DNA of 64,000 nucleotides from an uncultured Olleya sp. (GTDB lineage: Bacteria > Bacteroidota > Bacteroidia > Flavobacteriales > Flavobacteriaceae): positions 1-64,000 of the forward strand of contig CANNFD010000006.1 in the NCBI GenBank assembly GCA_947503885.1. Reading direction: 5' to 3'. The notes below the pieces were generated by a model, which saw only the letters and a list, made by a program, of their open reading frames with translations, ran no database searches and was not told the DNA's origin. This document shows, piece by piece, positions 14,788 to 19,193 of this stretch; positions within the stretch are counted from its first letter, which is position 1; every line of letters starts with the position of its first letter. The translations under genes and the position numbers were made by a program.

Positions 14788-15681
14788 TTATCTTATAAAT
14801 TTATCAACTACATATACAATCTGTATTAATGTAATGTATAATACACTTGACAACATTAGTTGTTTAGCTGCTTTTTCTGTCATTTTTTTATACAATTTAA
14901 TAGCATAGTAAAGCATTACTAATCCTAAACTAAAAACTACTATTGCAGCAACAATAGATAATTTTAAACGTCCTGTTACACCAAACACAGGAACTATTGA
15001 CACTAAAATAGTCCATATTGTATACAAAATTACTTGCACTGCTGTACCTTTATCTTGCTTACCTGTAGGCAACATAAAAAAGCCTCCTCGTTTATAGTCT
15101 TCAAACAAGAACCAACCTATAGCCCAAAAATGTGGAAACTGCCAAAAAAACTGTAAAGCAAATAATGTCCCTGGTTCTATACCAAAATTATCTGTTGCAG
15201 CAACCCATCCTAACATAAAAGGAATTGCACCTGGAATGGCTCCAACAAAAACAGATAATGGTGTTTTAGTTTTTAAAGGCGTATAAACACTTGTGTATAA
15301 AAATATTGAAATAGCACCAAACATAGCTGTCTGTGCATTAATTGTATATAATATAGCAATCCCTAATACCGTAAAAATACATGCAATTGCAAATGCTGTA
15401 TTAACAGACATGCGCCCAGAAGCAACTGGTCTGTTTTTGGTACGATGCATTAAGGCATCTAAATCTTTTTCGATAATTTGATTAAAAGCATTGCTGGCAC
15501 CAACCATAAAATAACCTCCTAAAGCTAGCAATAAAACAATTTTTAAGCTGATAGTATCAGCGCCCAGAAAATAACCAGCAACTGATGAAAACACGACACT
15601 TAAAGACAAGCGCATCTTAGTGATTTCTTTAAAATCTGATATAACCGTATGTTTTATTGAAGGTGTTGCTGTTGTACTCAA
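14788..15681 (-). CDS. ctaB: Protoheme IX farnesyltransferase (heme O synthase)
   Basis: The enzyme attaches farnesyl diphosphate to heme b to make heme O, the precursor of heme A for the oxidase. It has 297 residues and eight or nine membrane helices of the UbiA superfamily. The polyprenyl-diphosphate binding motif is NQIIEKDLDALMHRTKNRP, and YTPLKTKTPLSVFVGAIPGA is the second signature. It is the first gene of the ctaB-subunit III-subunit III-ctaF transcript, with a recognisable -7 box upstream. Also known as cyoE. Confidence 0.96.
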   Translation of the reverse strand: MSTTATPSIKHTVISDFKEITKMRLSLSVVFSSVAGYFLGADTISLKIVLLLALGGYFMVGASNAFNQIIEKDLDALMHRTKNRPVASGRMSVNTAFAIACIFTVLGIAILYTINAQTAMFGAISIFLYTSVYTPLKTKTPLSVFVGAIPGAIPFMLGWVAATDNFGIEPGTLFALQFFWQFPHFWAIGWFLFEDYKRGGFFMLPTGKQDKGTAVQVILYTIWTILVSIVPVFGVTGRLKLSIVAAIVVFSLGLVMLYYAIKLYKKMTEKAAKQLMLSSVLYITLIQIVYVVDKFIR

Positions 15682-15714: not shown

Positions 15715-15736
15715 CTGCTAAAAAGGAATTTGGCAT

Positions 15737-15773
15737 AAAAAAACCACAAGGTTTTTAGGCTTGAGGTTTTTTT
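15737..15773 (-). terminator. Terminator just beyond the displaced remB 3' end
   Basis: A 14-bp stem with one mismatch (AAAAAAACCTCAAG against CTTGTGGTTTTTTT on the minus strand) has a 9-nt loop and ends in seven U. It lies 15 bases past the stop codon of the decayed remB tail at 15787-15920. It is therefore best read as the original remB terminator. Confidence 0.75.
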
Positions 15774-15786
15774 ACGTTTTTAAAAA

Positions 15787-15920
15787 TTTTACAAATCAAA
15801 ATACCAATTAAATAAGTCTGTTCTAACCCCAAAATTAATCTATACTGTATTGTTATTATAAACCGAAGCTGTTTGTGCTTCTGGGTTAAAATTACGATAA
15901 CTTAAATTCACAAATGCTTT
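15787..15920 (-). pseudogene. Displaced, decayed 3' end of the remB-like gene
   Basis: These 134 bases match 17056-17189, the end of the intact remB-like gene, at 131 positions. The fragment encodes the last ~43 residues and the same stop codon. The three differences change Ser to Asn, make one silent change, and turn a Trp codon (TGG) into TAG, so the fragment could not work as a protein end. Similarity stops abruptly at both sides. A strong terminator follows it, as expected for the original end of remB. Confidence 0.93.
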
Positions 15921-15937
15921 CTATTATTTGGTTATTA

Positions 15938-16159
15938 TTATTTGAAAATATTATTCTTTAATAAGCCTAAAAGTATAATAGGTAAGTATAACAAAAATAT
16001 TATATAATATTTATATTTTTCTGTTTCAGAAAATATACAAATCAAAAAGATTAATAAGCTAAACCCAAAAATTAAATATTTATATATTTTTTTTAATGGC
16101 ATAACCAAAGAAATAAATAAATATAAAAATGCTGTTATTACCAAAGATATTATTTTCAT
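15938..16159 (-). CDS. Small three-helix membrane protein carried by the inserted segment
   Basis: I chose the ATG at 16159 (MKIISLVITAFLYLF), giving 73 residues. An upstream ATG at 16186 would add nine lysine-rich residues and would overlap the lost reading frame of the lipoprotein tail. Almost the whole protein is hydrophobic: helices at about 3-20, 25-42 and 50-66, with basic residues at both ends (KKIYKY, LLKNNIFK). No family is recognised. It follows the lipoprotein gene closely. A membrane immunity or partner protein is one reading of such a pair, but only by analogy. Confidence 0.6.
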   Translation of the reverse strand: MKIISLVITAFLYLFISLVMPLKKIYKYLIFGFSLLIFLICIFSETEKYKYYIIFLLYLPIILLGLLKNNIFK

Positions 16160-16234
16160 TTTTTTTATTTTTAGTTTAACATACAATAAGCAAATTGGCC
16201 TAACATAAATAAAGCTCCGGAACCTGTTGCATAC

Positions 16235-16876
16235 CTAAGTATTATTTTTTTTAGCTATACTTAAGGCTGCAGATTGAAAAGCAGTCGCAGCTGCAGAATC
16301 AACAGCCCACCCTGCAGCAACTTCTCCACTATAAATTGCTGCAGCAGAATCTCCTAAAGCGGATAATGAATTTAATCCAGTTGCTTGCATTAAACATTCT
16401 ACAAAATCTCCATCAACTTTTGACATGGTTGGTGTTTCTGATTGATTATTATAACTTACAATTAGTGCTAATCCGAAAGCAAAATAAATATCATCTGTAT
16501 TAATATTTTCTATGGTATCAATATTTAGTAAATCATTTTGACTTACACCCAATTGTTCAAATATTATTCTTGTTTCATCAACTACACTTTGTATTATGAT
16601 TTCAGGATAATCATTTGTATCTATATCATTCAATTTATTTGCTTTTGCTGAGTTTGACATATCAACAATTTTTAGACTTAATTTCTCTAAATTTTCAACT
16701 CGTTCTTGATATGAAGGTAGTATGATTTCTGACTCGGAATCTTTTTGATTTTCAATTTCATCACTACTACAAGATTGTAAAAAAAAGTTAATGAATACTA
16801 TACCTATAAAGGACAATAAGATTATTTTATTTGTTTTCAAATTTGAAATAATAAATTTTAGATTAATTTTTCTCAT
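16235..16876 (-). CDS. Lipoprotein of unknown function, probably frameshifted at its C-terminus
   Basis: The protein has 213 residues. It has a basic N-region, a hydrophobic core (18-34) and a lipobox FLQS-Cys36 followed by SSDE, so it should be lipid-anchored. The middle is acidic and helical. From Cys161 the character changes to a small-residue, Ala/Gly-rich segment (GDSAAAIYSGEVAAGWAVDS). It ends IAKKNNT at a run of eight A on the coding strand (16245-16252). Removing one A would continue the frame to 16171 with IILRYATGSGALFMLGQFAY and then CMLN, a 234-residue protein with a second Cys near its end. No named family recognised. Confidence 0.65.
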   Translation of the reverse strand: MRKINLKFIISNLKTNKIILLSFIGIVFINFFLQSCSSDEIENQKDSESEIILPSYQERVENLEKLSLKIVDMSNSAKANKLNDIDTNDYPEIIIQSVVDETRIIFEQLGVSQNDLLNIDTIENINTDDIYFAFGLALIVSYNNQSETPTMSKVDGDFVECLMQATGLNSLSALGDSAAAIYSGEVAAGWAVDSAAATAFQSAALSIAKKNNT

Positions 16877-16998
16877 GGTTGATTTTGTTTAAAAATTAAT
16901 ATGGTTTTCAACAAATCAAAAAAAAACACTTCTAAACTAATTTATTTTTCAAAAAACACTGTATTTCATCGAAAAAGCCATTATTTTCAAAATCGTGT

Positions 16999-17053
16999 TG
17001 TGGTTAAAACCACACTTGACTGATTTTCAATCAAAAAAAGACTGAGAAAATCA
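16999..17053 (-). other. Two short hairpins after the present remB stop codon
   Basis: TGATTTTC/GAAAATCA (17021-17028 with 17046-17053) begins 5 bases after the remB stop. The palindrome TGTGGTT-AA-AACCACA follows at 16999-17014. Neither has a proper U-tract, so termination here is likely to be weaker than at 15737-15773. Confidence 0.35.
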
Positions 17054-17055
17054 AC

Positions 17056-17189
17056 TTTTACAAATCAAAATACCAATTAAATAAGTCTGTTCTAACCCCA
17101 AAATTAATCCAAACTGTACTGTTATTATAAACCGAAGCTGTTTGTGCTTCTGGGTTAAAATTACGATAACTTAAATTCACAAATGCTTT
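17056..17189 (-). repeat. Second (functional) copy of the duplicated remB 3' end
   Basis: These bases are the counterpart of 15787-15920, with three differences in 134. This copy is in frame with the rest of the remB-like gene and keeps the Trp codon, so it serves as the working end of the gene. Confidence 0.93.
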
Positions 17190-19193
17190 TAAATTAGAGG
17201 CTGGATTAACCAAATAACCTAATTGCCCACTTGCATTTATAGACGTTGTTTTTATACCTTGACCAATTGTTACTCCTGTATCAAAAGGACGGTCATTATA
17301 ATCTTTATATATATCTGCTCCGTAACTAAAGTTATCTGTACCGTCGTTAACATCCAATCCTCTTACACCTGTTACTAATTTAGCCTCACCAAACCAACGG
17401 TCTTTTTGGTAACGCCCAATTAATACTAACTCTCTAAAATTTGCTCCCCAAAGGTGTGCCATAGGCTGATTATTGTGTGCATAGTTTAGTACAATTGTAT
17501 TATGAGAATAAGTATATGGTCTTACTTGGTTGTATTCTGCTTGAAGCATTAAATTTTTCACTTTAAAGGCATTGTAATATTTTGCACCTAATTGGAAACC
17601 AAATTTGTTTTTCCAACTTTTGTTCCCTCCTGTAACATCACTTAATGAAAATTCGTCTAAAATAAATTGACCATATAAATTAGCGTTATCGCTTAACTTA
17701 TATTTTGCTGAGGCACCTAAAATTGCATTTCCAGCACCTTGACCTGTTTCAAACTCTATAGCTCTAAAAAAGATTAAAGGGTTTAGATAATTAATATCAA
17801 AACCTCTGTCGTTAGAGTTTTCCCAAATTACAGATTCAAATAACCCTAAATTAAAACGTTTGGACACATTCCAACTTAAATAATGGTTTGCAATATATTT
17901 TGTTCTAAATGCTTTATCCACCACTGCAGCATCACGCACATCCTTTAACCATGTCCAAGTATTAGTGTATTTGATTTTCCAAAAAGTAGTATTTAATTTT
18001 AAAAATGGATAAGGTGAGGCAACATCACTTTGTAACAAGCTTCTATAACCATCACCAATAAACTGTTTACCATGACCAAATTGTACATTTAAAAACTTTG
18101 CAGGTGTATAAGACAAATAAGCTTCAGCTACGGGGTAATCATAACCATCCTCTTTAAAGCGTTTAGCGATACCACGTCCAGGGATTATTGCAGGGTCGGG
18201 ACCAAAAGCCTTCAGACTTTCTGCATATTGATTATAATATTGAGCAAATCGTCCTTGGTTTTCAAAAACTGAGGCTGAAAAACTAAGCTTACCACCTAAA
18301 CCTCCTTGAATATACAAACCACGAGTATTGTTATAGGTGCTACCAAAATCAGCATCTGTGTCTTTTCCTAATTGTAAATCTAAAATAGGATCTACGGTAA
18401 ACCAATAATCTTCACCTTGTATTTGTGCAAGATGTTGGTTCCACAACTTACGTCCAACCCACGTATCTGTTTTTTTATTTAGTTTATCATTTTCTGCAGA
18501 AAAATCATAATAATTAGAAACATCTTCATACCTAAAAGGTTTTGAGGCAGTATGGCTATTTGTTCCTATCCTGTTAATATCTTGATCAAATCTAGAATAA
18601 TTCTCATGCGAAAACGGGATGTTGACTTGACTTGTATATGCTTTGTTAGAGTATTTTGTTATCGCTTTTTGAACGCTATCAAATTCTTTTTTGGCTTGTT
18701 GCTGTAAGGCGGTTAGTTGTTCTATTTGATTAACTTCCTTTAGGTTATCACTTTTAGTTTCTGCTACAGCAGGGCTATCACTTGGGATATTTTTCTTGTT
18801 TAAAGGAAAATATAACGTCATACTGTATTGCTTAAACGTAGGATTACCACTGTAAGTTGCAGGTTCTATTATAGGAAAGTCAGAAAACACACGATTGACT
18901 TCTTCTTTTAATTCTTTGTTTTCTGCCTCAACATATACTGTTTTAAAAACACCTTTTTTAGTGACTTCAAAAATAATAGCAACCTCGCCCTTATAATCTA
19001 CAGTCAGGGTTTCTGGTTGTTTAAATTTTGTATAAATAGTTTTATAAACTTCTTGATTAAAGCAATAATCTAATTGTTTTACTGGAGTGTCTTTACAGTT
19101 TTCAAAACGTGGAGACACTAGATAAACGGTTCTATCCTGCGCATAAGAAACTACAGAACACGTTAATAAAAGTCCTAAAATGAAAGTCTTCAT
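17058..19193 (-). CDS. RemB-like gliding-associated outer-membrane beta-barrel protein with a TonB_C-like N-terminal domain
   Basis: The 711-residue protein has a signal peptide (MKTFILGLLLTCSVVSYAQ). Residues ~25-135 resemble the C-terminal domain of the two TonB proteins encoded next to it: a Cys pair 11 apart, then VAIIFEVTKKGVFKTVYVEA, and a closing TLYFPL. A hydrophilic linker follows. From ~220 on there are alternating beta strands with many aromatic residues, as in Wzi-like outer-membrane barrels (LNVQFGHGKQFIGDGYRSLL), ending in WYFDL. Proteins of this layout are annotated RemB in gliding flavobacteria; I rely on size, layout and neighbourhood (tonB, gcvH, sprA) for that name. Its 3' end was replaced by the inserted segment. 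Confidence 0.7.
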   Translation of the reverse strand: MKTFILGLLLTCSVVSYAQDRTVYLVSPRFENCKDTPVKQLDYCFNQEVYKTIYTKFKQPETLTVDYKGEVAIIFEVTKKGVFKTVYVEAENKELKEEVNRVFSDFPIIEPATYSGNPTFKQYSMTLYFPLNKKNIPSDSPAVAETKSDNLKEVNQIEQLTALQQQAKKEFDSVQKAITKYSNKAYTSQVNIPFSHENYSRFDQDINRIGTNSHTASKPFRYEDVSNYYDFSAENDKLNKKTDTWVGRKLWNQHLAQIQGEDYWFTVDPILDLQLGKDTDADFGSTYNNTRGLYIQGGLGGKLSFSASVFENQGRFAQYYNQYAESLKAFGPDPAIIPGRGIAKRFKEDGYDYPVAEAYLSYTPAKFLNVQFGHGKQFIGDGYRSLLQSDVASPYPFLKLNTTFWKIKYTNTWTWLKDVRDAAVVDKAFRTKYIANHYLSWNVSKRFNLGLFESVIWENSNDRGFDINYLNPLIFFRAIEFETGQGAGNAILGASAKYKLSDNANLYGQFILDEFSLSDVTGGNKSWKNKFGFQLGAKYYNAFKVKNLMLQAEYNQVRPYTYSHNTIVLNYAHNNQPMAHLWGANFRELVLIGRYQKDRWFGEAKLVTGVRGLDVNDGTDNFSYGADIYKDYNDRPFDTGVTIGQGIKTTSINASGQLGYLVNPASNLKAFVNLSYRNFNPEAQTASVYNNSTVWINFGVRTDLFNWYFDL

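Follow-up and report, generated by a model that had tools for sequence, protein, structure and literature searches.

Displaced remB tails in Olleya point to a probable integrase-free accretion site for toxin/immunity-like modules between remB and ctaB

The closest described relatives of the locus reported here are the orphan cdiA-CT/cdiI and rhs-CT/rhsI modules, in which, according to the passages cited, new modules push old ones downstream and the displaced ones start with a fragment homologous to the intact upstream gene (PMC4927057, PMC3967940). The remB-ctaB interval of Olleya resembles these CDI and Rhs orphans in the displacement itself, in the presence of a fragment homologous to an intact upstream gene, and in the possibility of recombination between the copies. 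The difference lies in the source of the homology: in the CDI and Rhs systems, as those passages present them, it comes from the conserved part of the toxin gene itself, whereas in Olleya a neighbouring housekeeping gene supplies it with its 3' end, to which the leader and the toxin N-terminus are added in one genome (G005). CDI arrays are, in the same passages, also often linked to transposase or integrase genes, whereas none was found at the remB site.

Two further toxin systems are comparable. The MafB islands of Neisseria likewise hold a full toxin, alternative C-terminal cassettes with immunity genes, and undergo recombinational exchange, but they represent a different toxin family, and gene-tail scars go unmentioned in the passages that describe them (PMC4287609). 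The SitA proteins of myxobacteria are likewise lipoprotein toxins with variable C-termini, immunity genes and several cassettes per genome; unlike the Olleya modules, they are described, in the sections cited, as carrying nuclease domains, as restricted to Myxococcales with traAB, and as lying in prophage-like Mx-alpha repeats (PMC5562445).

With regard to the mode of entry, the published hotspot model, as outlined in its source, invokes a double crossover at flanking genes; it shares with our locus the integrase-free turnover of cargo between conserved genes, but its double homologous recombination leaves no duplicated gene end (PMC5635113). Two other routes are reported in E. coli: linear DNA is ligated to a circle that enters by a single crossover, or it enters by homology-facilitated illegitimate recombination, with one homologous and one illegitimate joint (PMC3240628). 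The first of these predicts exactly the arrangement seen here, a whole gene, then the module, then a truncated tail, although the part of the source cited describes a laboratory set-up in E. coli and does not deal with how a natural locus came about (PMC3240628). On comparison with these systems, we favour placing the locus among cases of module displacement as in CDI, Rhs and Maf, with the homology supplied by the neighbouring housekeeping gene. Among the titles searched, in mostly open-access literature, there were none on toxin modules beside remB or on gene-tail scars of this kind, and no paper linking Olleya with a toxin and immunity protein was found in a likewise mostly open-access literature.

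The window is the whole stretch of 64,000 nucleotides analysed, from an uncultured Olleya sp., and the features described in this paragraph all lie on its reverse strand. The upstream border is an intact remB-like gene of 711 aa (17058..19193), for which a match was found in 35 of the 40 relatives searched; the name remB is that of the first-pass annotation, and neither Pfam nor NCBIfam places the protein in a family. The working 3' end of this gene forms the inner copy (17053..17189) of a direct repeat, the outer, displaced copy of which lies at 15784..15920. By repeat search the two copies extend over 137 nt at 97%, and their alignment over a coding block of 132 bp has three differences, namely Ser-to-Asn, a silent Val change, and TGG to TAG, the last being a Trp-to-stop change in the outer copy. 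The three differences, the stop codon, and the inner copy in frame with the full gene (it is the end of the 711-aa ORF) had all been described in the first-pass annotation and are confirmed here. In a whole-genome search, the 134-base remB tail was found in exactly two places at the search threshold, and 15784-17189 had no match among plasmid records.

Between the two copies, reading away from remB, lie a leader (16877..17052) that includes GGTTTTAACCACA, then cargo ORF 1 (16235..16876; 213 aa, a candidate toxin with a lipoprotein-like N-terminus and an Ala-rich, hydrophobic C-terminus), and cargo ORF 2 (15938..16186; 82 aa, a small hydrophobic protein and candidate immunity protein), all on the reverse strand. 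Judged by eye, GGTTTTAACCACA is also found in G005 at a similar distance from the remB stop; the leaders of the window and of G005 show no BLAST-level similarity. The outer copy precedes a terminator-like hairpin (about 15734..15776, reverse strand), which is present before ctaB in empty genomes too and is followed by the downstream border of the site, a ctaB-like gene of the UbiA family (14788..15681, reverse strand; Pfam UbiA, 2.8e-56). In line with the strong terminator previously proposed beyond the outer copy, this hairpin folds at -15.6 kcal/mol (z -5.2), with none of 200 shuffles equally good; a simple terminator consensus scan did not have it among its matches. What suggests that the outer tail is the original remB end is its joint to this native hairpin.

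Within the genus, the interval was compared in 10 Olleya genomes, the window included. Four sites (G002, G003, G004, and G007) are empty, having 98-106 bp from the remB stop to the ctaB start, a single tail and a similar hairpin. The remaining six are occupied by differing cargo, the same distance being 1377 bp in the window, 896 bp in G001, 12287 bp in G005, 4267 bp in G006, 741 bp in G008, and 746 bp in G009, a contig of Olleya marilimosa CAM030; three of these six carry no displaced tail. Such a mixture of empty sites and varied cargo had been predicted from the window, and it supports and extends the earlier proposal of a homology-driven insertion site at the remB end, the recombination of incoming DNA being what the pattern suggests.

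The 82-aa gene of the window, its junction to the remB tail, and the scar are shared with G009. Because G009 was sequenced separately and has the same junction, the duplication is real and not an assembly artefact, a possibility that the first-pass annotation had named, and chance is likewise ruled out as the origin of the repeat. By the sequence evidence, the window insertion took place before this lineage and O. marilimosa separated. G009 has lost the greater part of the 213-aa gene, with its start and end still recognisable; in the window, the 213-aa frame ends early in a run of A, and another frame beyond that point resembles the end that G009 has kept. The 82-aa gene shows 93.5% DNA identity and 90% protein identity between the two genomes, with dN/dS values of 0.047/0.161 by one method and 0.060/0.091 by another; because dN and dS depend on the method, these values do little more than hint at selection. 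With the G005 interval, that of the window had only the remB tail and hairpin stretches in common at E 1e-5.

At three sites of the 132-bp block the two copies of the window agree with each other and differ from those of G009, and no site sets inner copies apart from outer ones; the outer copies then gained about three changes each. Two of the three genome-grouping sites also vary among other species, and homoplasy is possible there. Because the tails group by genome despite one shared junction, they are best read as having undergone gene conversion in at least one lineage, for which the case is good, if not watertight. For the same reason, dating the incoming tail by its divergence fails: the tails would have been homogenised since the insertion, and divergence therefore no longer shows which of them came in.

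The most elaborate arrangement is that of G005, whose interval (about 12.3 kb) contains three polymorphic lipoprotein-toxin-like modules, each behind a remB end, a near-identical leader and a toxin N-terminus; here and below, the lipoprotein status of toxin-like proteins was judged by eye from their N-termini. The displaced remB tail before the second module measures 245 bp (99.6% to the genome's own gene), and that before the third about 470-536 bp (98.7% over 469 bp). The repeated unit extends over 1257 bp at 99.92%, with one mismatch, between modules 1 and 3, and over 1718 bp at 98.7% between modules 1 and 2. Toxins 1 and 3 are 97% alike over residues 1-275 and then diverge; past the repeated unit the G005 proteins differ, and immunity-like lipoprotein or membrane genes come next. 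The second toxin gene is broken. The G005 modules thus combine the conserved N-terminus and exchanged C-termini of polymorphic toxins, and modules 2 and 3, each of which starts with a remB tail followed by the leader and the toxin N-terminus, show the displacement typical of orphan modules, whereas in the window the displaced part corresponds to an empty site with no module. The adjacent immunity-like genes, together with orphan ones in relatives (G005, G006, G008, and G001), fit the same class in their layout and in the genes that these genomes share.

Matches to toxin 1 are present in 41 of the 397 genomes of the family, and its N- and C-terminal parts match separately across genera (for example, only residues 4-236 in G308 and only residues 337-560, at 71%, in G422). 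Within the C-terminal domain, HExxH and a later HxxM are invariant in all 11 aligned copies. The domain has matches below threshold only, SprT-like in 8 of the 11 and Tox-MPTase3 in one protein (0.0096), and the best PDB hit has an E of 0.85.

Other occupied sites look like remains of such modules. G008 and G006 share with G005 a 179-aa-type gene situated just after the apparent last codons of a toxin gene, G001 and G006 have an immunity-like gene in common, and G006 retains a toxin fragment of 148 aa. It would appear, then, that G001, G006, and G008 have kept immunity-like genes beside toxin genes reduced to their last codons or to a fragment. In G006 (L053 13015-13608), an immunity-like gene and the final codons of a toxin 1 type gene are apparently fused; a deletion that joined two modules would give such a fusion.

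From this evidence we infer toxin and immunity roles for the Olleya cargo, and reading it as a toxin/immunity-like module would refine the earlier, more general reading of an insertion. In the window, the pair would comprise a lipoprotein (the toxin) and a small membrane protein (the immunity protein); the 213-aa ORF is read as the toxin because of the site, the gene order, and its loss in G009 with the 82-aa gene kept. Similarity searches place neither ORF in a family of Pfam, NCBIfam or PADLOC, the window genome (G000) has no match to G005 toxin 1, and the 213-aa ORF shows no detectable similarity to the G005 toxins by which the window's cargo could be placed in their family. For the 213-aa ORF, 1 of 60 genomes matched, which was its own; at E up to 0.1, matches occurred in 104 of 397 genomes, the best outside one (4.4e-4) lying within a 1021-aa frame and none being convincing. 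Its C-terminal 71 aa matched in 2 of 296 genomes, its own included, and the ORF near one of the matches in G196 looks by eye like an LptE-type lipoprotein. The predicted fold of the 213-aa ORF (pLDDT 35.6) was not usable. Among the 21 stretches compared, the 82-aa gene was found only in G009. Accordingly, the counter-evidence that the first-pass annotation had named, both genes in distant relatives with no duplicated tails, was not seen.

The two cargo genes may instead encode an unremarkable lipoprotein and membrane protein that happen to lie in a variable site and form no toxin/immunity pair; to this reading we give a real but clearly minor share of probability. It agrees with the fact that neither cargo gene has a family or a convincing relative, and with Hyunsoonleella aquatilis, where the cargo before a remnant tail is a lipoprotein-like ORF having just a weak match to DUF6252. 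However, the position of the window genes, their order, and the loss of the first with the second kept in G009 parallel the modules of G005, G006, G008, and G001, and these parallels lead us to retain the reading as a toxin/immunity-like module.

The remB-ctaB interval in Olleya is therefore probably, in our estimation, an integrase-free accretion site, where toxin/immunity-like modules enter via the remB tail, leave a scar, and later undergo tail conversion and toxin loss. What is observed is that the remB tail is duplicated, that some sites are empty while the others hold varied cargo, that scars recur with differing lengths, and that O. marilimosa shares the junction; to this the reading adds putative cargo roles, presumed gene conversion and a presumed mode of entry. 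A module would arrive with a piece of the remB 3' end upstream of it, and homologous recombination in the remB tail would leave remB whole. At its far end the incoming DNA would have been cut shortly past the last immunity-like gene, and would there join a broken-off remB end illegitimately; one such illegitimate joint is needed to explain the scars, because a double crossover at flanking genes would leave the gene end in single copy. In the simple route, a linear fragment would be ligated to a circle and then undergo one crossover in the tail. The old tail and the native hairpin would stay outside as a scar, the length of which would reflect the break point of the fragment; in the window, the scar would be 15784-15920 and the module the ORFs 16235-16876 and 15938-16186. 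Later on, conversion would keep the tails alike, and toxins would tend to vanish while immunity genes stay. Circle formation with a crossover, homology-facilitated illegitimate recombination, and duplication with replacement would each yield such a layout and are not separable with these data.

Across the family, displaced remB tails are rare. The named-locus set comprises 80 remB loci of the family, of which at least four are genomes already counted above and 73 have both borders in order, and the 73 remB-ctaB intervals include 20 under 150 bp, 11 of 150-400 bp, 8 of 400-1000 bp, 21 of 1000-1500 bp, and 13 longer ones. Displaced tails occur in 3 of the 73, one being the same genome as G009. 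A family-wide search with the remB end gave matches in 234 of 397 genomes and more than one match only in G000, G005, G252, G266, and G361; the main locus of G252 has no second tail. As a control, 60 named intervals of at least 150 bp were searched with different parts of remB: the last 900 bp gave 4 matches at E below 1e-3 (that in L201 stops short of where the gene ends), against 2 (about 4e-4) for the first 900 bp and none for the middle. In G014, G015, G017, and G021 (L059, L057, L061, and L063, respectively), the interval contains a gene on the opposite strand whose product, judged by eye, resembles a hydrolase of the metallo-beta-lactamase fold.

Two of the loci with extra tails deserve description. 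In Gelidibacter gilvus, four remB tails of about 115-155 bp stand in tandem, the last one lacking the gene end, and there is no cargo, an arrangement that local tandem duplication explains better than insertion. The four decayed tails of this locus (L204 12113-13200) are interspersed with copies of a short palindromic repeat (CCTGCGCAGG type). In Hyunsoonleella aquatilis, a remB remnant of 74 bp lies before ctaB; its peptide score is 51, whereas the highest null score across 93 intervals was 28. The ORF between remB and this remnant (L203 12438-12956) is the 172-aa lipoprotein-like one with the weak DUF6252 match.

Displaced tails of other genes were sought around every match to toxin 1 outside Olleya (45 stretches in 40 genomes, picked by similarity to one G005 toxin). 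Three housekeeping genes were found with them. A trhO-like (rhodanese/UPF0176) gene in G108 has a displaced tail of 83 bp (88%), with the native spacer duplicated as well; an mfd-like (TRCF) gene in G272 has one of 106 bp (72%), with the module on the opposite strand; and in G317, a trpS-like gene (tryptophan/tyrosine-type tRNA synthetase) is followed in order by a toxin, an immunity-like gene, a second toxin, an immunity-like gene, the displaced tail, and terminator-like sequence. Sorted into classes by eye, the 11 matches from the 442 ORFs of these 45 contexts comprised 4 full-length or paralogous ones and 7 short ones (3 of housekeeping genes and 4 of toxin-like ORFs' own tails). The control scan of 81 loci and 1038 ORFs, sorted in the same way, gave 98 matches, of which 89 were full-length or paralogous and 9 short (6 of remB at 4 loci, 2 paralog pairs, and 1 exact 33-bp repeat). 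Short tails of other genes, at 3 of 45 toxin contexts versus 1 of 81 control loci, do not differ significantly (Fisher p 0.13), and because of this value gene-tail scars elsewhere are to be taken as a lead and not as proof of enrichment. In L187, the end of a reverse-strand 514-aa ORF is repeated exactly over 33 bp at a point 2.9 kb downstream, which has the look of an ordinary att duplication. In L215 (G125:C33, 4472-11540), a penicillin-binding-protein gene adjacent to gldH (Pfam GldH_lipo) is followed by a toxin array in which a 295-bp leader/N-terminus repeat occurs three times; no displaced tail of that penicillin-binding-protein gene passed the scan.

These loci bear on how the scars arose. 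A history in two steps, in which short-junction exchange between sister chromosomes tandemly duplicates a unit of gene tail, module and downstream spacer and one copy is then changed by allelic replacement or loss, seems to us unlikely, if worth keeping in mind. The duplicated native spacer at the trhO-like locus of G108 and the plain tandem tails of Gelidibacter gilvus are what it would lead one to expect, and a duplication-first model has been proposed for orphan Rhs and CDI modules, as the cited passages relate (PMC3967940, PMC4927057). In the window, however, the outer tail meets only the native hairpin, so that a second, emptying step is needed.

Integrases typically insert at gene 3' ends and restore the gene. 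A site-specific integrative element lacking its integrase, with attL and attR at the gene end as in cis-mobilisable elements, would agree with this habit, and the exact 33-bp gene-end repeat of L187 shows what such a site looks like, but we regard it as highly improbable because the displaced remB tails start at different positions, which leaves no constant att core (they cover 43 codons in both the window and G009, either 245 bp or about 470-536 bp in G005, 155 bp in Gelidibacter, and 74 bp in Hyunsoonleella), the gene ends concerned are unrelated, and a Pfam scan of 20 Olleya cargo ORFs (2 from the window, 10 from G005, 6 from G006, 1 from G001, and 1 from G008) found no integrase, as the first-pass annotation had stated for the two of the window.

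Module entry via a gene tail may extend beyond remB. We offer it as a tentative idea, one that we would not yet back, that Flavobacteria have a general integrase-free route by which lipoprotein toxin/immunity modules settle beside housekeeping genes, on fragments that carry the gene's own 3' end and enter through a single crossover, restoring the gene and leaving a truncated tail as a datable scar; remB-, trhO-, trpS- and mfd-like genes would all serve, and the scars would help find new toxin islands. If the reading of the Olleya locus is true, ordinary recombination would let toxin arsenals grow module by module without the enzymes of mobile elements, and a truncated copy of a neighbouring gene's end would be a sequence mark with which one may find such islands and order the arrivals within them. 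Attention is also drawn to toxin-like lipoprotein families and immunity-like ones that pass no Pfam cut-off, one C-terminal domain among them having an invariant HExxH.
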